Shown: piece by piece, positions 23,733 through 36,547 of the stretch
How the letters are laid out: each line of letters begins with the position of its first letter
Numbering within the stretch: the first letter of the stretch is position 1
Assembly: GCA_030770425.1 (NCBI GenBank)
Contig: JASJFT010000090.1
Location: forward strand, 62,001-126,000
DNA from: Darksidea phi
Taxonomy: Eukaryota; Ascomycota; Dothideomycetes; Pleosporales; Lentitheciaceae
DNA length: 64,000 nucleotides
Reading direction: 5' to 3'
Translations under genes and position numbers: made by a program
Notes under the pieces: model-generated
What the model was told of the DNA's origin: nothing
Databases searched by the model: none
Seen by the model: only the letters and a program-made list of their open reading frames with translations

Positions 23733-24775
23733 ACTATCTACCACTTTGTAGGGCCGCCCTTATTGTCGGTTATAGCCTAGTAGCGCTCCCTTATATTTTA
23801 TATATACTTTAAGAAATTAGATAGCTTAATTTTAGCCTACTCCTTCTCTACGTAGCGCCGTACGTTCTCTACCGTCCTAAGAAACCGCCTACTAATTCGG
23901 TACTTAAGTAGTCGCTAAACGTTCTTAATAGGGTTTAAATTAGATAAGTTAGTAGATTAGATTATCTATAGGATTTTAAGCTACTCGTATAGAGCCTAAA
24001 TAACCTGGGCTATATAGACTAGAGAGCTATCTTCTATTAAGATTAGTAGCTAAATAAAGTTCTTAAAGGTATAGATAATAGAAATAATATACTATTAATA
24101 GACCTCTTTATTAACCTTCCCCTACTCCTTCTTAAAGATAACTATAGGGTCCTTCTACTAGCTAGTAATATAGCCCTAGATTATCTATACTAAGTATCCG
24201 CGGGACTTTAGTATATAGTAAGGTAGCTTATACTTCTTCTCTACGTACCGAGTAACGTATACCTACCTATAGTTATAGACTATTAAGTACTTATCTATCT
24301 ATAGACTAGACGATCGCGGCGGTATTACTCTATAAGAAGCGGCTTCTTAGTCGTTTTACGGTGGAAATATATCTCTTTCTTAAATACCTAATAAGCGTAC
24401 GCTTATAGGCTTATATCCCTTCTAGTTCTACGATATAGAGGAAGCTAAGCCGTTTATAGTAGCTATTAATAGTTACCTACTAGATCAGGCGCTAGTACTT
24501 AATAGTATTAAGAATAGGCGGCCTACCTTAAGGCTTCTTAGGCGTCTTAGGTAGGCTAAACATACGGCGAATAGTAGAGCGCGGGATCGTAAGGGCGCTG
24601 CTAATCTACGTGTAGGACCAGCCAGCGTAGTTACGCAGGGTAAGAATCCCGATTCGTTGGCGGTAGCTGAGCCTACTAGGGCCCTCAGAGCTCTCGGAGT
24701 GCTACTAGCTGTCGCGGGCTCGGATTCGGTGTAGAGAGGGCATTTTTTGATTGAGGGGACCTACCTCAGGCGAGC

Positions 24776-24851
24776 TGAGAAAACAGGTGTCTTTTTGCCA
24801 AGCTTGGTGGCGGCGAAAAGAGGGGGCAGCCCGTACATGAGCCCCCCCTGT
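24776..24851 (-). repeat. Right terminal inverted repeat of the Tc1/mariner element
   Basis: Reverse complement of 23658-23732 with a few changes in the C-rich part (CCCCCCCCTGT against CCCCTCTTTT). Confidence 0.85.
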
Positions 24852-24902
24852 TATAAATCGCAAGACGAACTGCCGTCGGCGCTGGAAGAGATTACCGATA
24901 TC

Positions 24903-26901
24903 ATGGAAAGCTTTATCAGCTTGGAGCCGACGCTGAGATCACCTGCACCACTCGACACCATCCCATCTGTGCCTATGCAAGCGCCCGCCGCCCAGAAGCT
25001 GGAGAATGGCGATGATCGCAACCTTGACAATACAGGCTACTGCCTCTTGTCTCTGGACGGCGGCGGTGTGCGGGGGCTTTCGACATTGTACATTCTGCAG
25101 AGCATCATGAAGCGGCTGAACTTCTTGCGCGAAGAAGCAGGACTGCGGCAGAGGAAACCGTGCGAAATATTCGACTTGATCGGCGGGACAAGCACAGGAG
25201 GGTAGGAACTCCCATTCTCTTAGAGAGGATCTCTGATTCCTTAATCTGGGGAACGCGCGCTGATGCATTACAGGCTCATCGCCATCATGCTCGGGCATCT
25301 GGAAATGTCTGTTGAGGAATGCTTGAAAGCCTATACCGAATTGATGAAGCATGTGTTCGAGAAGAAAGAAAACCGTTCCTTTATAAGCAAGCTCGGCCGT
25401 GTAAAGCCGCGATTTTCGTCGCAGGCGCTGGAGGACGCCATTGCAAAGGTAATCAAAGAGCGCGGATTATCAATCAACGAGAGGTTTGAGAACGGGAGTA
25501 AGCCACGGTGTAAAGTGTAAGGACCCATCCGTATCGTCACTAGCAGGTCAGAAGTGGGAATGGTGGCTAACAAGATCCTGTGGGCAGATTTGTCTGTACC
25601 AAGTTCCAGAAAACAAATACCATAACCCGCCTGCGCAACTACCGAATGCCCATCGGCTCTGACCACCACCCCACGATCCTGGAAGCCGCGCTCGCGACCT
25701 CCGCCGCTCCAACCTACTTCTCTGATGTTGCCATCGAAGGCAGCAAATTCGTCGATGGCGCCATCGGCGCCAACAACCCTGCCGTTCAAGTTGAAGAAGA
25801 AGCCGCTGACCTCTGGTGCGAGAATACCGGCTACCTCCAGCCGCTCGTCAAATGTTTCATTTCCGTCGGCACTGGGCATCCCGGCATACGTAGCGTGTCC
25901 GACAAGGGGTTCAAGAATTTCTTGGAGACGCTGCAGAAGGTAGCGACGGAGACAGAGGACACGAATCAGCAGTTTATGGGGAGATGGAGAGATCATGAGG
26001 CGAAGGGCAGGTGCTTTAGATTTAATGTGGACCATGGGCTGGCGGATGTGCGGTTGGCAGAGTTTGAGGAGCAGGGATTGATTAAAGATACAACGGCAGC
26101 TTATTTGGATAGGAGGGCGACGAAGGGGATGGTGAGCAAGTGCGTGGAGAATTTGAGGATGAAAGAGTGTGCGTAGTCCCTATACGAATGGTCTAGAGTG
26201 GCAGTGCTGATTCTTCTGGTTTATATGTAGATGAACCCAGCCCAGAGTTTCTCAGGAGGCTGAAAGAAGAAACGCTCGTACAAAGACCGTGTCAGAACCT
26301 AGCAAAAGCGACACCCTCGGAAATAGGTAAGTACCATGCCCAATCGCATCCCGGCATCAAGAAGAAACTAATACTCCGTCCAGCTGAGCTCATCGACCTC
26401 GGCAACCGACACCTCAAAATACCCCCAGACCGCATCACCACATATGACCTTCTGAAAGCACGCCAGCACTTCTCCCAAGCACTCCACTACCGCCGAAACG
26501 ACCGCTCCACCTCTCCCAAACAGGTCGCCCGCCTCTGCCAAAAGCTTATGGAGACCTCGCTCGGCCTGAGCATGCTTTCTCGCGACCCGACACAACGCAA
26601 AGACCACGCGAACCAAGCGCGGGACTATGGCGAGACAGCCCTAGAAAATGTAAGAATAAGCGGAGATGACTGTATGGTAGCGCAGGTGGAGTTCCTGCTG
26701 GCGTGTGTGAGTGTATGGAGGGTGTATTTGCAGGCGAGAAAGGATGGTGTGCAGCCGAGCGTCCATCCAAGCAGGGAGGGGGTGGAAGTATTGATGAAGG
26801 AGAGGTTAGAGGTGTTGAGGAGTTTTGGGAATTTGGATATGGAGGCGTATGAGGCGCAGGCGCAGAAGTATTTGGGATATTTGACGAAGCCGCTGAAGTA
26901 G
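24903..26901 (+). CDS. Patatin-like phospholipase, five exons, 578 aa
   Basis: Exons 24903-25201, 25274-25516, 25588-26168, 26231-26326 and 26384-26901 join in frame through consensus introns. The active site is complete: DGGGVRG (52-58, oxyanion hole), GTSTG (95-99, nucleophile Ser97) and DGA (Asp237-Ala239). This predicts a lipid acyl hydrolase. After the patatin domain comes a helical extension of about 190 residues (NRHLKIPPDRITTYDLLKAR.. to the end) with no NB-ARC or TPR motif visible. Fungal patatins often act in or next to NLR-type cell-death systems. Here the gene lies head to head with a dead DUF7580-like gene, with the transposon inserted about 50 bp upstream of the ATG, which may have changed the promoter. 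The coding frame continues open above 24903, so the true start could have been lost with the insertion. Confidence 0.85.
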
Positions 26902-27045: not shown

Positions 27046-27888
27046 TCACCTAATGCCAGATACCAGCGTAGGCGCAGGTCTTTCCAAAATCACCGACACG
27101 GAGTCCTTAGGCTCAAGTTCATCATCCGGACTAGACTGAGGAAACATCGGCGCTTGATAGTAACTTTGTGGATACTGCTGCGGGTAGACCGGCGGCTGCT
27201 GGATCAGAGGGTGCATTGACTGCGAGTACTGGTCCGGCTTCTTCCTTAGACACGAGCAATTTCTGAGCAAGATTTTGAGCACAATTGCTAGGAACGCGAG
27301 TGCTGCCAAACAGCCCACAACGATTCCGATGATTTGGGTAATGGAGAGGCCGTTCGATTTGGATGATGAACTCTCCGATGAGATCGAGGAAGTCGGTACG
27401 GCAATTCCTCCACCAGTCGTAGCCTTCGTAACACCTCCCGCCCCTGTTGGCTGCGCAGACACGGTCGCCGGTACCGCCGATGCCGTATACCCCTTCTCTG
27501 CACAATACTGCGAATATATACTCCCGGCGCTCGCGGCATCAATCGAGAAGTCTCCAACCGAGCAATAGTAACTGATACAGCTGGTCAAGGAGCTCTGCGC
27601 TGCGGTCTGCAAATCGGCTCGGCAGTAGCAGTCGTTTGTAGCCTGCCAACCCACGCGATCGCACCCGGTGTCGGTCGCGCACCCAATTTCGCTCCCGAGC
27701 ACGTCGTTGGGGCAGTCGCCGGTGCTGAGGAAGCAGGATTTGGCGCAGGCTTTTTGGAGGGGAAACGCAGAGATGGTGGTTATTTCTTGTGTTATGGTGC
27801 CTAATTGGGCAGTTGTTGCTTGTATGAGGAAGCAGAAAGCCAAGGTGAGGAGGACGTGAGCTCGATGGTGGGAATTTCGCCGTGCCAT
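27046..27888 (-). CDS. Secreted-type Cys-rich single-pass membrane protein, 280 aa
   Basis: The start at 27888 (MARRNSHHRAHVLLTLAFCF) gives a signal peptide ending near TTAQ. The ectodomain of about 100 residues has some ten cysteines (CAKSCF, GDCPND, GCATDTGCD, CYCRAD, CISYYC, YCAEKG), a pattern similar to CFEM-like surface domains. A Ser/Thr/Gly-rich linker follows, then one membrane helix (IIGIVVGCLAALAFLAIVL) and a basic, Pro/Gln/Tyr-rich cytosolic tail. No intron is needed. A receptor or adhesion role at the cell surface is plausible; CFEM assignment is not certain. Confidence 0.8.
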   Translation of the reverse strand: MARRNSHHRAHVLLTLAFCFLIQATTAQLGTITQEITTISAFPLQKACAKSCFLSTGDCPNDVLGSEIGCATDTGCDRVGWQATNDCYCRADLQTAAQSSLTSCISYYCSVGDFSIDAASAGSIYSQYCAEKGYTASAVPATVSAQPTGAGGVTKATTGGGIAVPTSSISSESSSSKSNGLSITQIIGIVVGCLAALAFLAIVLKILLRNCSCLRKKPDQYSQSMHPLIQQPPVYPQQYPQSYYQAPMFPQSSPDDELEPKDSVSVILERPAPTLVSGIR

Positions 27889-28635
27889 TATGATAGCTAA
27901 AAGATTGGGTAGGTATTGAGCAACAGCAGAAGCAGCGCAAAGCAGGCAGAAGGGCGACATAAGAGGGTTATCCTTCAGCTCGTATTCCTTCTACCAGAAT
28001 CATTAAGGGGCAACAGACTGCAAGACGCCTTTGCTGCTGCACCCCTGGAATACGTCGACGTTTCACTGGACAGTCTCTCGCTACACTGTATGAGACTATC
28101 AGCTCTGTGATATTTGTGGCGCTCATGGGCGCTTCCCTGCAGGTCTACTGCTTTTGGGGGCGATAGACGAGGCTTCCAGGCTTGTCCGCAAGCTGGAATA
28201 CGAGCGGAAACGAGTAATAACAAGCGAAAGTATCCCCTAAGGCTTGCATGTGGGAACTGCCACTATACCGAGGGTGGATGAATACATCGAATTACCGTAA
28301 AATCTCTCTTATACGCCCTAGGCGTATATATTAGAGAGTAGTCTTATAGAACTTTTAGCTTAAATATAATATAGCTATAATATACTAATCTCGCAACCGT
28401 ATAACTTCTACCCTTGCCGGTCTACATATAGGAATCGGATAGATTACTCGATAGAGATAGCGGGGTTGAATTCCTGTCCAGTCAACACTTTTAGGAGGCA
28501 CCTCCATAATTACACATGTTCCGAATTAGGCAACCACCTGATGGCTCATTCTGGTACATCCACAGTCTTTCACGGGGGAACCATATTTCCGAAGTAACAA
28601 AATTGCCGCGCCAACACCTTTACGCGCAAAGCGTA
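27889..28635. other. Intergenic region with AT-rich RIP-like patch
   Basis: The stretch 28290-28430 is TA-rich and looks mutated. No gene is supported here. Confidence 0.5.
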
Positions 28636-29519
28636 TTAAAGTGTGTTTGGCAATTTGTTCATATTCTGCTCATTTTTGCCACCCGACATTTGGCCTTGGA
28701 CCGCAACCATAACACCATGTCTGTTTTCGAATTTCATGTTCGAGTTGCTCTAGGTAGCATGTGTGAGTAGGGATTGCTGTCAAATCACGCCTCATTTTCG
28801 GGTTTTTTGCTTACTTTCTGGTTCAGGATGTTCTGCACCGCCGACCCAAGAGTCGGATCACGCTCCTTAACGGCATTCTCCAACTCTTGTATGACGTGAA
28901 CAAGCTTATCTAGCTCCTCTTTGCAGAGCTGGGCCTGTCTGTCCTCAGGCGGTGGGAAGATCTGGTAGAGGGTGTCGGTGAGGTCGTTGATGTCTTTGAT
29001 CAGGCCGTCTAGGTGTCTCTCGTCATAGATAGCGAACTTGGCCTTGCGCGCCGTCCGCAATTTGTTCTTGCGGCCCTCGATTATGTCTTGCATCGTCTCA
29101 TGGAGGTACCGGCGCATCGGGTTCCATGTTGACCCGAACGGCGCGATCTCGTTTTCCCGGACGCTGGGGTCGTCTTCCTCCTTGCCCTTCCTGTAGTTGT
29201 GGCAGATTTTTTGGCACTGGACGAACTTCTCTTCGATAACTCGGAAGGTCTTGGCGGCCTGGTCTTCCTGTTCCTGATTAAGCAAAAACTCGCCAGAGTT
29301 TTTGAGCGAATCTTCGTCGGTGATCCTGGCGCCGCTGAGGCCGACGGCCCTGCCCCAGCGCGTTAGCCTCAGCTGCGCATTGTCGAGTTTGAGAAGGTGC
29401 GTCTGTAGTCTCGGCCAGGTTTGCTTCGCGACATAGATGTAGTCAAACCATGTGACGGCATTGTTGAAAAGGCTCGCCACGCCCGCCACTGCACTGATTG
29501 CTACTTCTGGACCAGCCAT
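28636..29519 (-). CDS. HeLo-domain protein with C-terminal candidate amyloid motif, 272 aa
   Basis: Exon 1 (28815-29519) begins MAGPEVAISAVAGVASLFNN and encodes about 235 residues matching the HeLo (prion-inhibition-and-propagation) domain: a hydrophobic N-terminal helix, then LRLTRWGRAVGL, and helical blocks ending ELENAVKERDPTLGSAVQNI. Reading straight through gives a stop at 28785. However, a consensus intron at 28750-28814 (GTAAGC donor, CTACCTAG acceptor, phase 0) adds a 37-residue exon, 28636-28749. This tail is Asn/Gly/Gln-rich and contains FENRHGVMVAVQGQM (242-256). HeLo proteins of the HET-S type carry exactly such a C-terminal amyloid region, and the N-terminal helix forms a membrane pore when the tail is templated (family knowledge). 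The motif aligns without gaps to residues 6-20 of the divergent NLR. The gene appears intact. Confidence 0.8.
28750..28814 (-). other. Predicted 65-nt intron that reveals the HeLo C-terminal exon
   Basis: GTAAGC donor at 28814, CTAC-type branch region and CTAG acceptor at 28750. Both flanks are in phase 0 and the downstream exon stays open for 37 codons. Confidence 0.7.
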
Positions 29520-30564
29520 CTTTCTGCGTGTGTTTATGGGTGTTTTGGGAACCAAAGGAAATGATTGCGGCTGTCGTGGCGATATTGGGGGCTTTGTTGT
29601 CCTCATGGGCTGAAACCGGTGAATGATGGATTGGTTGGGTAAGCTGATAGGGTGCTTGTCCATTTTCTTCTCGTTTTAGCTCGTCCTCTCGTACTTTCCT
29701 GCGCCCCACTTGCTGCGGTTATCTTGTCCTCCAATTGAGATGAAGATGATACGTGGTAGGATGCAGATTCAATTCCCCGATCTACCTGGCCGCCCGGCCC
29801 AATCAATACACCAGCGTCCTGATCCCTGCGCTCCATTGGTGCCAGGACGGCAAGAATGTCAGAGTGACCAAAGCACGACCGGTGCATACAATGCACTTGA
29901 CATGGCATCTTGGCCGCAAGCTTCAACCATTCTTTCTTTTACCAAGGCATTGTCAACAAGTGTGCACGGTCGCTATGGACGGTTGGCAGCGATCTGGGCG
30001 ACGCCAAAACGTCTTTGCGTTCGGGATGTGCATACCCCGCACATTTGGACCCGCGCCATGATCCGCATCCGGCGTGGCTGCCTCGGACGTGCAGCTAGTC
30101 AACGAAGCTTGAGTACAATTTACCACAGTACTTATACAGAGTCCTTATTCAAGCGACCTGTTGCCGAACCAGCGGTATGTTAGATCGCAGGAAATGCGTT
30201 ATTATTTGAGCGAATCAAAGTCCGCCATACAGAGGGCTGCGCTTCACCGGTCCACAGGCAATGGACCCGCTCTCGCCAATAATGAGTGAGCCCTATTACG
30301 AGCTTGCAGCCATGATGCAGAAGTGGTCTGATATCGGCAATGTATTGTCCAATCCCATCATTCGGATACTTTGAGAGGTAACGCTAGTCAGCATCAGTTT
30401 CATGATATCAGCGCATGTTCCCGGTGCTGCCACGTAACCGCGAGCCCTACTAGCATTCGCCCCGCGTATCGTGGATACACTTAGATCTCTAGATAGTGCT
30501 CTCTTCCAACTACTCTAAGACGGCTACTCCAACGCATTATACGCTATGGGCCTAGGTGCCTAAC
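29520..30564. other. Shared promoter region between the divergent HeLo and NLR genes
   Basis: This is 1,045 bp between the two start codons. I see no stable repeat or coding segment. The head-to-head layout would allow co-regulation. Confidence 0.55.
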
Positions 30565-33500
30565 ATGACAAGCTACACCTATTACAATTATGCTGGAACT
30601 CAGATTGGAGCGCAGGGCAACGTTCAAAACTCGTACGCTTCTAACAGGAAAGGCCATGCAAAAGTGCTCACCTAACTTAGAGCCCGTAGTATATCTGAAC
30701 CCTCAGGCCGGTTACAAGATTGTTTAAGATCGCTGGCGTTTCCAGAAATGTACAATCGGTACAATGATATCGACACCATCACCAAGGGAACATGTGAATG
30801 GCTGTTTAGTAACGAGGCGTATAGGACCTGGGTCACTTGCGATCAGGGCTTGCTCCGGATCATGGGGAAGCCCGGCTCCGGAAAGTCAACCTTGCTACGC
30901 TACACTGTTGACAATATTGTGAAAGCACCCAACATTGGAGACAGTGTCTTCGTTCTATCGTTCTTCTTCCACGGCCGCGGCGATAAACTTCAAAGGACGC
31001 CGCTCGGCCTCTTTCGGTCGCTCCTTCATCAGGTCCTCAAGCAGATCCCCAGCGCACTGCCAGATCTCGTCGACACCTATGAACAAAGGCTCAACAACAT
31101 GGGCGAGCCGGACAAAAACTGGCGGTGGCATCAAAACGAGCTGTGGCACTTCTTCGAGTCGTCGCTTCCAAAGGTCATGGGGAGTCGCCCAGTCTGGTTA
31201 TTTGTCGATGCGCTGGACGAGTGTGGCGAAGAGGACGCGGTAGAGTTGGCTGCGAAGTTCACGTCCTTGATCCGGAGTCTTCCATCCACTGGCTTGGAGC
31301 GGCTTCACATCTGCTTCAGTTGTCGTCACTACCCGATTCTGGACCGGGAGCATGGGTTAGAAATATGCCTTGAGCGTGAAAATGAAAGGGATATTTCGAC
31401 CTACGTGCGAACCAAGCTTTCCCGGCACCATACCCGAGAAATAGAAATCATAACGGATCGGGCCTCAGGCGTTTTCCTATGGGCATATCTTATCGTGGGC
31501 CGCGTTCTGGAGCTTGACCGTAAAGGGGAAGCCCCGATAAAGATTCTGGCCGAAATCCAACGTATCCCTCAGGGCTTGGACGAACTCTATCAAGAACTTA
31601 CCCGGAATATGAAAGGAATATCGGGTTCCCTAAAACTGATACAATGGATCTGCTTTGCCACGAGGCCTCTGTTAATAGACGAGCTACGGTGGGCCATGGT
31701 CGTTGACGCCGATTGTCCCCACAAAAGTCTGCAACAGTGCCGGAGCACGGAAGATTACATTGACGATAATGGGAGGATGAAACGGAAGGTTAAAACGCTC
31801 AGCCATGGCCTAGTGGAGATAGTGCGGTCATCCGACGCATGGATTGTGCAGTTTATCCATCAGTCAGTCAAGGACTTCTTCGTCGAAAAGGGCTTCCCGG
31901 CTCTGGTTGCCGCCTTGAATTTACCAAATTTAGCAGTTAGGAGCCCGCAGTACCGCCTATCCAGATCGTGTGTCAACTACCTGGCAATGGAGGAGATCGC
32001 GCAATCGGTAAACGTCGATCGGCAGAACTTAAGATTAAAGTTTCCCTTACTAAACTATGCGACGACCTCCTGGCTAATACATACGAAGCAAAGCGAAGCA
32101 GAAAATGCTCCCTATTTTGATCTTCTAGACTATTTCGCTTTCCCATCGGAACGCCTTGTACAAGTATGGGTCCGCATTTACAACCAAATAGACAAGTACT
32201 CGGCCGACCGCCCACCTGTAGGAACTAGACTACTACATATTGCGTCGAGATATGGACTATTACAAACTCTGAGGGTCATTTCGCAGAATATAGATCGATT
32301 TGGAGTCGAGATTGACTGCCGAGATGCTAAGGGTCGAACGCCTTTTTCATGGGCAGCATGGAGTGGACACGAGGCTATCGTCAAGCTTCTGCTCGATACA
32401 GGAAAGGTCGATATTGATTCGAAGGATAAGTACGGGCGGTCGCCTCTTTCGTGGGCAGCAGGGAATGGGCACGAGGCTATCGCCAAGCTTCTGCTCGACA
32501 CAGGAAAGGTGGATGTTGATTCGAAGGATACTGAGTGGGGGCGGTCGCCTTTTTCATGGGCAGCAGAGAATGGGCACGAGGCTATCGTCAAGCTTCTGCT
32601 CGACACAGGAAAGGTCGATGTTGATTCGAAGGATACTTTATACGGGCAGTCACCTCTTTCGTGGGCAGCAGAGAATGGGCACGAGGCTATCATCAAGCTT
32701 CTGCTCGACACAGGAAAGGTCGATATTGATTCGAAGGATACTGTATACGGGCGGTCGCCTCTTTCGTGGGTAGCAGAGAATGGGCACGAGGCTATCGTTA
32801 AGCTTCTGCTCGACACAGGAAAGGTCGATGTTGATTCGAAGGATACTAAGTACGGGCGGTCGCCTCTTTTATGGGCAGCATGGAATGGACACGAGGCTAT
32901 CGTCAAGCTTCTGCTCGACACAGGAAAGGTCGATGTTAATTCGAAGGATACTGTGTACGGGTGGTCGCCTCTTTCGTGGGTAGCAGAGAATGGGCACGAG
33001 GCTATCGTTAAGCTTCTGCTCGACACAGGAAAGGTCGATATTAATTCGAAGGATACTGAGTACGGGCGGTCGCCTTTTTCATGGGCAGCATGGAGGGGAC
33101 ACGAGGCTATCATCAAGCTTCTACTCAACACAGGAAAGGTTGATATTGATTCGAAGGATAAGTACGGGCGGTCGCCTCTTTCGTGGGTAGCAGAGAATGG
33201 GCAAGAGGCTGTCGTCAAGCTTCTGCTCGACACAGGAAAGGTCGATGTTGATTCGAAGGATACTGAGTCCGGGCGGTCGCCTCTTTTATGGGCAGCAGAG
33301 AATGGACACGAGGCTATCGTCAAGCTTCTGCTCGACACAGGAAAGGTCGATGTTAATTCGAAGGATACTGTGTATGGGCAGTCGCCTCTTTCGTGGGCAG
33401 CAGAGAATAGGCACGAGGCTATCGTCAAGCTTTTGCTCGACACCGGAAAGGTCGATGCTGATTCGAAGGATGAGTACGGGCGGTCGCCTCTTTCACGGGT

Positions 33501-33807
33501 AGTAGAAAATGGGCACGAGGCTATCGTTAAGCTTCTGCTCGACACAGGAAAGGTCGATGTTGATTCGAAGGATACTGAGTACGGGCAGTCGCCTCTTTCG
33601 TGGGCAGCAGAGAAGGGGCACGAGGCTATCGTTAAGCTTCTGCTCGACACAGGAAAGGTCGATGCTGATTCGAAGGATGAGTACGGGCGGTCGCCTCTTT
33701 CACGGGCAGCAGAGAAGGGGCACGAGGCTATCGTCAAGCTTTTGCTCGACACAGGAAAGGTCGATACTGATTCGAAGAATAAGTACGGGGGGTCGCCTCT
33801 TTTATAG
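30565..33807 (+). CDS. NACHT-ankyrin NLR (STAND) with N-terminal candidate amyloid motif, 1064 aa
   Basis: Exon 1 (30565-30632) encodes MTSYTYYNYAGTQIGAQGNV and two more residues. A 48-nt intron (30633-30680, GTACGC donor, CTAACTTAG end) leads to a long exon opening with GRLQDCLRSLAFPEMYNRYN, which fits the segment before fungal NACHT domains. The NACHT has a P-loop GKPGSGKST (85-93) and Walker B LFVDALDEC (about 196-204), and the winged-helix end FIHQSVKDFF is present. From about residue 565, fourteen 34-35-residue ankyrin repeats follow, nearly identical in DNA. A fifteenth is cut by TAG at 33805-33807. Sensors of this class switch on by nucleotide exchange and seed amyloid in a partner. 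The first 20 residues match the tail of the divergent HeLo protein. Confidence 0.85.
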
Positions 33808-33850
33808 GTAGTAGAGAATAGATACAAGGCTATCGTTAAGCTATTATAAA
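32305..33850 (+). repeat. 102/105-bp coding ankyrin repeat array, 14 full units and a decayed fifteenth
   Basis: The unit reads YGRSPLSWAAENGHEAIVK then LLLDTGKVDVDSKD(TE). Copies are almost identical over HEAIVKLLLDTGKVD. They vary mainly at positions just before and within the first helix (SP[LF][SL][WR][AV][AV][EWG][NKRS]). After the stop at 33807 a recognisable repeat continues to about 33850 with several C-to-T and G-to-A changes. Confidence 0.9.
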
Positions 33851-34967
33851 CCTAGTATATCCATAAGCTAGTTCTTACTTTTCTAATTAAGTAACCTATA
33901 GCTCAATAAAGTATATTTGATTTGGATTTGTATAGTGGGAGTCTCTTTAGAAGGTCCGCACGAAATACAGTAGGAGTTTGTACACAGTAGAGGGACTATA
34001 CCCACACCTTATACACGATAATAGAGCTGTAGAGCTGTACACAGTACTGTCAATCGTGAGCGATGAGGTGATGTTTCGAACATTGAGGCGACGAGAAATG
34101 ACTTGTAATGCCGAACCACAGAGCCTAGTTGGGAGACCAACAGCGGTAGCGATGAGTTAGCGCACCCACACTGTACTAAACTACTATAATAAATTTTAAT
34201 ATTTTAGAATACTACTATCTATATACTAATAATTAGTTCTAGAAAGTTTATATAGAATATTATCTAGTATTAGAGTAGTTATAATTTTTATTACCGTTAG
34301 ACATCTCTCGTATGTATGCTAAATGTCTGAGAGACTAGTGTAAATGTGGACCGATTGAGCTGCGTAAGCCATTTAGCTCATTTGAGGACAAGATCAGGTG
34401 TTTTGTGCTAACGATCACATTTTCTCTCCCCTCTCGGTTCTTTCCAGCTAACTGCACCTCATACCTTGGCGGAATATTCCGAAGGTATCTCTAAATTAAA
34501 GGAGGTAAAAAGCAAACTCCAGCCATGCCAAGTAGAAGCTCGGGATCCTCTGGTGATAGCTACAACAGCTGACTTTGTTCAGCTATGCGTGTATTCTATG
34601 TGGATGCCATACCAAAAGCTTCAAAATCGCCAGTTCGCGCCAATCATTGGCGTCACCTCACATTCCTCATAACCACGGTAGACTCTTGTTTATTTTTTTG
34701 TATGTAACACTGTAACACCGAAATTCAGGTTAGACTCAGCTCAGTGACTGCCCCAAGCCACCAACTCAGCTCAATAACCGCCCCAAGCCACCAACTCAGC
34801 TTCGGGTTCAAAGGCGTCTCATAATCTAAGGTTACTTTATGCTGCACCTCCCTTCCCTTTCGCGTTTTGGTGCAAGTATTCAAATCATTTTCACACATCG
34901 CGCGTCGAGCAAGAAGTCTGTATAGAGGAGCTTCCTCATAACTTGTTTACTCTTTTAGACGTCAGCC
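33808..34967. other. RIP-like AT-rich flank containing a SINE-like copy
   Basis: The stretch 34160-34310 is very AT-rich. A 30-bp unit (ACTCAGCTCAGTGACTGCCC..) is duplicated at 34734-34793. A SINE-like copy lies at 33915-34145. The stretch 34440-34670 is unremarkable. Confidence 0.5.
33915..34145 (-). mobile_element. SINE-like element, copy A
   Basis: About 231 bp, inverted relative to copy B at 35359-35577 and about 90 percent alike by eye. Read on the minus strand it starts with a tRNA-like head: TACCGCTGTTGGT resembles a pol III A box and GGTTCGGCATTAC a B box. It ends in an A-rich CAAATCCAAATCAAAT tail. It is longer than copy B by an internal stretch near ATCGCTCACGATTGAC. No clear target duplication is seen for this copy. 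Confidence 0.6.
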
Positions 34968-35341: not shown

Positions 35342-35358
35342 ATCATGACAGGCCTCAC
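35342..35358. repeat. 17-bp target-site duplication, first copy
   Basis: ATCATGACAGGCCTCAC, identical to 35578-35594. The joined sequence reads VIMTGLTYLFG in the host gene. Confidence 0.85.
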
Positions 35359-35577
35359 CGCTGTTGGTCTCCCAACCAGGCTCTGTGGTTCGGCATCACA
35401 TGTCATTTCTCGTCCAGCGCCTCAATGTTCGAAACATCACCTCGTCGTACTGTGTACAGCTCTACAGCTCTATTATCGTGTATAAGGTGTGGGTATAGCA
35501 CCTTTACTGTGTACAAACTCCTACTGTGTTTCGTGCGGACCTTCTGAAGAGACTCCCACTATGCAAATCCAAATCAA
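35359..35577 (+). mobile_element. SINE-like element, copy B, with 17-bp target duplication
   Basis: The insert is flanked by exact copies of ATCATGACAGGCCTCAC (35342-35358 and 35578-35594). It starts CGCTGTTGGTCTCCC, has a B-box-like GGTTCGGCATC and ends CAAATCCAAATCAA. It lacks a few bases at its 5' end and an internal 14-16 bp relative to copy A. Length, tail and duplication fit a non-autonomous retroposon mobilised by a LINE. No open reading frame is expected. Confidence 0.75.
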
Positions 35578-36547
35578 ATCATGACAGGCCTCACATATTT
35601 ATTCGGGCCCCTCTTGGCGGTTTTTGACATTCTCGTCAACAAACCTGGCTCTTCCGCACTGTTTCGTAGCCTAAAGAGCATCCAGGTCGTTATTACCGAA
35701 GCCGACGCTTTCCTCGTCCTCTCCATCCAAGTTGCCGCCATTATGCGCATATCACAGAATCCGCCCATCTTTGAAGCAACGTTCCTAAAGTTTCTTAACG
35801 CCCTCCTCCTCTTCTTAATCCTGACAACCGTGGTTTCGCAAATCGCAATGAATCTAGAGAAAACACCAAGGCGGGCCACAATCTTATGTTATGCGGCAGC
35901 TACGCTGTCTCTCTCATCGGTTACCCTCACCATTGCTGGTATCCCTCCGGGAACATTCGATATATACCAAGATGTTACAGAAGAATGCCACAGATCGCGA
36001 GGTTACGAAAACGTCAGCGGATACTACAATTCCAATCTTGAATACCTTTACAACGACAAAATGATCAAATACATAGGGATCATAACGGCCGCATTGTGTG
36101 TCCCATTCGTTCTCGTTGTTTGTGGATTGCCCCGATTGCGTGGGGCGGTGACCGGGGACAGTCGCAAAAAGTTGTCCAAATTGTCTAAATGGGGTCAACT
36201 ACGTACTTGGCAGAAAGCAATGGTGGCCGCTGCCTTTTTTTTCTCAATATTTTTGGGACTTGGCTTTTACAAATTGTGGATTGCGCGGTTGCTGCTAGCC
36301 AAATCGAGTGGGGGCTTGTACCAGGACAATGAATGGGGCTTCGGACAGATTACTGCAGCGCTACTTCCAGCACCAGTAATCATAACTGCTGCGCATGAAG
36401 TACACGGTAAGTTTGATTGATACGCATTTTATTAATAGAAACATGGCTAATTCCTTCATAGGTGCTGTATTCAGGAGGCCAGAACGCAAGGACATGGGAG
36501 AAGATAGAGAGCTTTTACAGCCTCATGATCGCCATTATCCTGGTTGA

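Follow-up and report, generated by a model that had tools for sequence, protein, structure and literature searches.

A divergent HeLo effector and NACHT-ankyrin receptor gene pair with a RHIM-like receptor tip in the fungus Darksidea phi

A 64,000-nucleotide stretch of the Darksidea phi genome (contig JASJFT010000090.1, positions 62,001 to 126,000; hereafter the window, in which all coordinates are counted) carries two divergently oriented genes that look like a real working pair, one encoding a HeLo-domain protein and the other a NOD-like receptor (NLR) with a NACHT domain and ankyrin repeats. Computational analysis establishes both domains, a separate tail exon in the HeLo gene, the linkage of the two genes in other fungi and a likeness between the N-terminal tip of the modelled NLR and the RHIM of human RIPK1. 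The chances appear to us roughly even that this is an NLR-controlled death pair of the HET-S/NWD2 design, in which the RHIM-like NLR tip would seed the tail of the adjacent HeLo protein. An earlier note on this DNA, made from the sequence alone, had proposed such a pair, with the same amyloid motif on both termini.

The HeLo effector gene and its tail exon

The HeLo gene (minus strand, 29519-28815 joined to 28749-28636) encodes a product of 272 residues, of which residues 236-272 are contributed by exon 2. Its features, together with the region that it shares with the NLR gene, are as follows.

28815..29519, minus strand: HeLo exon 1 (residues 1-235), HeLo domain, from Pfam, phmmer and Foldseek
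28750..28814, minus strand: HeLo intron, GTAAGC...CTACCTAG, 65 bp, its junction visible as a join or a read-through in 40 of 43 homologues
28636..28749, minus strand: HeLo exon 2, the tail (residues 236-272), predicted disordered, with homologous tails in P0002, P0003 and P0011
28687..28731, minus strand: effector-side motif of the earlier note, FENRHGVMVAVQGQM (HeLo residues 242-256)
29520..30564, no strand: upstream region shared by the divergent genes, whose start codons are 1,045 bp apart

Pfam assigns residues 7-214 to the HeLo family PF14479 (E value 9.9e-34; 117.4 bits against a curated cut-off of 23.2), and phmmer reports matches with the solved HET-S/HET-s HeLo chains 2wvo, 2wvn and 2wvq. 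The AlphaFold model of the protein has a mean pLDDT of 74.6, with values under 50 at residues 1-11 and 237-272, and four of the 95 Foldseek matches obtained with it reach E <= 0.001, all of them HET-s/HET-S HeLo entries (E 9e-9 to 6e-8; TM-scores of 0.56-0.59 on the query). Position 33 is described as determining HET-s versus HET-S behaviour (PMC3321046); the window protein has a Gln there, which aligns with His 33 of the 2wvo chain and differs from the proline given for HET-s in the title of entry 2wvq (P33H).

Inspection by eye of the tail junction in 43 HeLo homologues shows 11 with a tail attached at this position, 20 with a V and nine with an A, the three others being uninformative as they end before the junction or differ there. 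A V or an A is expected from read-through of an unspliced GT or GC donor, and the 29 homologues concerned seem to be tail-less because their gene calls were left unspliced. Judged from these alignments, the HeLo tail exon is genuine and its intron well supported. The tails of Hirsutella minnesotensis and Dactylonectria macrodidyma (P0002, P0003), which have QGxM in common with the window tail, match it at p 0.001, the floor of the 1,000 shuffles used for the HeLo tail comparisons. Tails of more distant homologues can be aligned along this stretch as well, though the individual pairs are weak (P0024 and P0029 with a gapped p of 0.04; P0013, P0014 and P0020 with 0.29-0.84).

The NLR gene and the conservation of the pair

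The NLR gene as modelled (plus strand, 30565-30632 joined to 30681-33807) would encode 1,064 residues, its putative exon 1 consisting of 22 codons and 2 nucleotides.

30565..30632, plus strand: modelled NLR exon 1, amyloid-like N-terminal tip; residues 1-24 without D, E, K or R
30574..30612, plus strand: RHIM-like core YTYYNYAGTQIGA (NLR residues 4-16), from a PDB match and background scores
30633..30680, plus strand: modelled NLR intron, GTACGC...CTTAG, 48 bp; alternative acceptor 30689
30681..33807, plus strand: NLR exon 2, NACHT (NPHP3_N) and ankyrin repeats, from Pfam
32339..33842, plus strand: ankyrin tandem array, 105-bp unit, 14.5 copies, extending beyond the stop codon 33805-33807

Pfam reports PF24883 at 30787-31326 (E 1.7e-31), followed by several Ank families. 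In the frame of exon 2, a TAA at 30673 is separated from the first Met by the segment DCLRSLAFPE, found family-wide, and a spliced 5' exon is therefore required. The spliced model places 36 residues ahead of the conserved CLRSL, with no large N-terminal effector domain. At the other end, the stop codon lies inside an ankyrin unit (33805-33860 region) and the frame continues beyond it as degraded repeat, so that the C-terminus of the receptor is probably truncated.

Linkage of a HeLo orthologue to a related NLR is seen in three other sources. The closest HeLo protein (P0001, 81% identity) and the closest listed NLR homologue (P0044, 72%) come from the same JGI source and a 28,154-bp metagenome contig, and P0003 and P0141 both come from Dactylonectria macrodidyma and a 228,741-bp contig; for these two pairs, we infer from the equal contig sizes that both members lie on one contig. 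The third pair, P0015 and P0144 of Ilyonectria robusta, has the consecutive locus tags AUP68_16922/16923. The NLR comparisons cover 120 listed homologues of 1,572, and further partner NLRs of HeLo relatives may exist. Two of the linked NLR records (P0044 and P0144) begin at a Met within exon 2 and do not contain exon 1, and the Dactylonectria NLR P0141 has a different annotated N-terminus, its 5' exon being possibly mis-annotated. The HeLo fold, the separate C-terminal HeLo exon, the divergent NACHT-ankyrin NLR and the pairing of the two genes, all put forward in the earlier note, are borne out.

A RHIM-like tip on the receptor

A search of 177,635 distinct PDB sequences with the NLR tip returns a single match at E <= 10, the RHIM peptide of human RIPK1 (9hr9_A, E 0.41); since RIPK1 was picked as the yardstick by the search itself, the fair measure of this step is the PDB-wide E value. 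The segments YTYYNYAGTQIGA of the NLR and YTIYNSTGIQIGA of the RIPK1 RHIM are identical at 9 of 13 residues, over YTxYNxxGxQIGA. The score of the tip against the RIPK1 peptide, 46, is reached by one of 5,000 and one of 20,000 shuffles and by none of 8,642 background 28-mers, and it exceeds those of 4,140 translated window pieces, the next best of which scores 31. The core G-x-Q-[ILVMF]-G occurs in 3 of 4,356 background 28-mers and in 0.36% of the tip's own shuffles. A genome-wide search for the DNA pattern of Y-N-x-x-G-x-Q-[IV]-G gave two matches against about 1.5 expected, the other one lying in a coiled-coil-looking frame of 761 residues and being judged a chance match.

The composition of the tip points in the same direction as the amyloid-like reading of the earlier note: 18 of NLR residues 1-24 are G, N, Q, S, T or Y, and only 8 of 15,152 homologue 24-mers are uncharged and as polar or more so. 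Terminal amyloid motifs are described as conserving G, N/Q and aromatic residues and as poor in charge (PMC3321046), and the motifs on the NLR side as having fewer charged residues (PMC4518210). The Q-I-G core and the amyloid-like N-terminus that had been noticed in this exon hold up, with residues 1-24 uncharged and the likeness to RIPK1 added.

The likeness to mammalian RHIM is partial. The strict tetrad is given as (V/I)-Q-(V/I/L/C)-G (PMC9444067), and the T-Q-I-G of the tip fits it at three of four positions; with Thr and not V/I as its first residue, the tip falls outside the strict definition. It also differs from the RIPK1 motif in having no match to the Pfam RHIM model PF12721 and in belonging to a fungal NLR, not a kinase. 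The resemblance could be convergence over 13 residues. In the literature, represented mostly by titles and the openings of abstracts, nothing was found on a RIPK1-like NLR tip.

The match between the two termini

The two 15-residue segments aligned in the earlier note, FENRHGVMVAVQGQM (HeLo 242-256) and YYNYAGTQIGAQGNV (NLR 6-20), are present as described and align without gaps, with 4 of 15 identities (27%) and a BLOSUM62 score of 24; for comparison, PP motifs inside known clusters are reported at 32-48% identity (PMC7885112). Shuffling of both sides gives p 0.06-0.12 for this score, which is reached by 2.9% of 4,000 real 28-mers and by 1.1% of 3,846 translated window chunks (41, the tail's own coding sequence among them), and a match of this kind is present in 40% of 60 random 1,229-bp stretches. 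Seven of the 11 tailed HeLo homologues were compared with the NLR tip by ungapped shuffles and give p 0.44-0.98. A profile built from all 11 and the window tail gives the tip -0.6 bits, a value that 434 of the 5,500 background pieces and 790 of the 2,000 shuffles match, and one restricted to the four nearest tails gives -1.7 bits (matched by 1,443 of the 5,500 pieces and 1,151 of the 2,000 shuffles); in a separate profile comparison, the best local match was the dipeptide QG alone (p 0.75). The linked Dactylonectria pair, as annotated and with its possibly mis-annotated NLR 5' exon, gives p 0.62 for tail against tip. A second copy of either terminus was not found in the genome by a word-based first look of limited sensitivity.

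The presence of the same motif on both termini, which was the central claim of the earlier note, is thus not established, the match being little closer than chance, and the data lean against the co-variation of the termini in relatives that this claim would entail, with the proviso that exon 1 is missing from two of the NLR records. These results bear on an alternative that we consider unlikely, namely that the two genes work as a pair but use no amyloid templating, and that the NLR directly reads the conserved HeLo tail as a docking or regulatory peptide. Such a role would suit a tail that is conserved in close relatives yet unmatched to the NLR tip, and that is unclassified in Pfam. However, the NLR tip has the position and composition seen in known amyloid systems and is RHIM-like, which counts against this alternative.

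Control pairs of the same genome and known motif families

Genome-wide searches of the 51.35-Mb assembly (477 contigs) provide two clear pairs for comparison. At C120 (L010), a HeLo protein with a two-repeat tail lies beside a NACHT NLR and forms an HRAM pair (score 41, p 0.0013). At C54 (L011), a HeLo protein with a PP tail has a PP tip and a frame of TPR repeats as neighbours (score 57, p 0.0005, reached by 0 of 2,000 shuffles); as the tip and the TPR-repeat frame are in different reading frames, we infer that they belong to one NLR. Ses_B (PF17046) matches both C54 termini (E 1.8e-9 and 4.3e-10), each with the core NxGxQxGxN, and the C120 tail matches HET-s_218-289 (E 2.4e-22). The C120 NLR tip stays below the cut-off (E 0.0049 with HET-s_218-289, 0.0022 with the model HET-S), which makes three of four control termini over the Pfam cut-off. 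Across the genome, Ses_B is found at six places, three of them over the cut-off (C54, C223 and C8), HET-s_218-289 (PF11558) at two, both at C120, and PF12721 at two, both below the cut-off (C379 and C49); none of these lies in the window. Among the other places, C223:598599-600473 packs three Ses_B motifs into less than 2 kb next to a NACHT match, which hints at a further PP cluster, and C8:21955-22032 is another Ses_B place. The HeLo genes L009 and L014 have long G-rich repeat tails that are HRAM-like by eye, without a PF11558 match.

The window pair resembles HET-S/NWD2, an HRAM system, in its divergent HeLo and NACHT NLR genes, its short terminal extensions and its HET-S-like HeLo fold, and differs from it in its undemonstrated shared motif and in the absence of the two-repeat HET-s motif: neither two 21-residue repeats nor a HET-s_218-289 match is found in the tail, whose 37 residues leave no room for a pair of repeats with a loop. 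Regarding the sigma motif, which we take to be the family modelled by PF17106 (NACHT-sigma), the NLR N-terminus returns no Pfam family at E <= 10. With the PP systems (HELLP/PNT1), the NLR tip shares a G-x-Q-x-G segment, which is common to PP and RHIM (PMC5485727). In contrast to these systems, PF17046 matches neither window terminus, and of the PP core NxGxQxGxN (PMC9815663) the NLR tip has GxQxG alone and the HeLo tail nothing. The classes described in fungi are HRAM, PP, sigma and PUASM, besides a rare PNP_UDP motif and other NLR-side motifs that are not assigned to a class (PMC9815663, PMC4518210); the window HeLo-tail family is not named among them in the text of these papers, as distinct from their logos and supplements.

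Scores against RIPK1 are 30 for the C54 HeLo tail (p 0.0024) and 23 for the C54 NLR tip (p 0.037), and in the PDB search the latter returns two LytE chains and no RHIM. The distant HeLo tail of P0013 leans towards RHIM (26 against RIPK1, p 0.053) and towards the C54 PP NLR tip (29, p 0.034), both p values being uncorrected for the number of tests. PDB searches with this tail, the window tail and the Hirsutella tail return no match at E <= 10. The C54 pair raises the question of whether the window NLR might be cross-wired, its RHIM/PP-class tip signalling mainly to a PP effector elsewhere, such as the C54 HeLo protein, while the neighbouring tail answers to something else. The genome does contain that PP pair, with Ses_B at both termini, its HeLo tail is RIPK1-like whereas the window tail is not, and non-adjacent partners are suspected in fungi (PMC9815663). 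We nevertheless regard cross-wiring as quite improbable, since the match of the window NLR tip to the C54 termini is no better than that to its neighbour (p 0.28 for the HeLo tail, p 0.24 for the NLR tip) and relatives keep the HeLo/NLR linkage.

Placement of the first NLR exon

NLR exon 1 as modelled appears the most natural of several solutions, and its intron is plausible, not proven. Single-intron models that keep the NLR frame number 36 (ATG from 29900 onward, intron of 40-400 bp), the acceptors 30680 and 30689 are both usable (48- or 57-bp intron) and leave the motif unchanged, and another option is a 50-bp intron with the same donor, starting from an ATG at 30590 in a different frame. 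Of the N-terminal exon (residues 1-22) described in the earlier note, the coordinates and the residues are as stated there. No better-matching upstream exon stood out. There is a precedent in het-eN, whose motif was concealed by an overlooked 5' intron (PMC3321046). That the exon is wrong, its amyloid and RHIM look coincidental and the true 5' exon elsewhere upstream, would agree with the number of frame-keeping models and with the different N-terminus annotated for the Dactylonectria NLR, but seems a poor prospect given that the modelled exon yields the shortest intron of the 36 and that its RHIM score is an outlier among the translated window pieces.

The proposed mechanism and its standing

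The reading in which the NLR tip templates the HeLo tail follows the scheme of the HET-S/NWD2 and HELLP/PNT1 work (PMC5485727, PMC7885112). The NACHT-ankyrin NLR would sense a ligand and oligomerise, its short, uncharged and RHIM-like N-terminal exon would stack into an amyloid seed, the seed would act on the adjacent HeLo protein by converting its disordered tail, and the membrane would then come under attack from the HeLo domain, leading to cell death. Every one of these steps, including amyloid formation, templating of the window HeLo tail and cell death, is drawn from the anatomy of the pair and by analogy with those systems.

Several results weigh against templating of the HeLo tail by the NLR tip. 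The tail/tip match has an overall p of 0.01-0.12, varying with the null, and its score of 24 compares with 41 for the C120 pair and 57 for the C54 pair. Against one internal stretch of other NLRs, the window tail reaches 32-39, more than in the claimed match, at 12 of the 14 best listed places. When proteins of NLR size were searched for these HeLo tails, there were 41 candidates, none at E <= 10. The tail lacks a Q-hydrophobic-G core, shows no detectable RHIM likeness (15 against RIPK1, p 0.42) and, like the NLR tip, is matched by no Pfam model at E <= 10, neither PF12721 nor Ses_B recognising the tip. If the window pair works via templating, its pairing would be diverged or heterotypic. Human RHIMs and fungal PP prions are reported to cross-seed partially (PMC7885112), so that an imperfect match leaves signalling possible, whether the neighbouring HeLo protein or the PP effector of C54 is the recipient.

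Surroundings of the pair

Both flanks of the pair hold AT-rich patches whose dinucleotide ratios bear the mark of repeat-induced point mutation (33801-34400 and 28280-28420; TA/AT 1.47-1.79, (CA+TG)/(AC+GT) 0.23-0.71). Just downstream of the NLR gene, 33915-34147 and 35357-35579 form a three-block inverted repeat that is 95-97% complementary, with its inner arms about 1.2 kb apart. A patatin-like phospholipase gene in several frames (24747-26901; one PF01734 piece over the cut-off and one just under) ends 1.7 kb beyond the HeLo 3' end and carries, by eye, no terminal motif like those of the HeLo and NLR proteins; patatin is listed among NLR effector domains (PMC9815663). Between this gene and the HeLo gene, at 27046-27960 on the minus strand, lies an open reading frame for a small cysteine-rich protein, judged by eye to be probably secreted and membrane-anchored.

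Among the NLR homologues, those of Gaeumannomyces with a PNP_UDP domain (PF01048; P0080, P0115, P0140 and P0150) carry, directly before NACHT, a linker rich in N/S/H/T with NR-[ND]-G-[VL]-VAVVRDVGG at its end. This linker weakly resembles the Dactylonectria HeLo tail, and the comparison was dropped, as its score of 35 is barely over that of unrelated matches (33).

Implications

A more specific proposal, which we hold tentatively and think rather doubtful, is an asymmetric heterotypic amyloid relay, in which a near-mammalian RHIM exon, nearer to RIPK1 than are the C54 PP motifs, would convert a HeLo protein whose tail belongs to a separate, unclassified family. Known fungal relays match motif to motif. 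For gene annotation, the pair illustrates that unspliced gene calls lose precisely the motif-bearing exons. If true, a RIPK1-like receptor tip beside an effector tail without that likeness would put to the test how much looseness amyloid templating allows, and also whether the members of the PP/RHIM class form a single ancient family or arose by repeated convergence.

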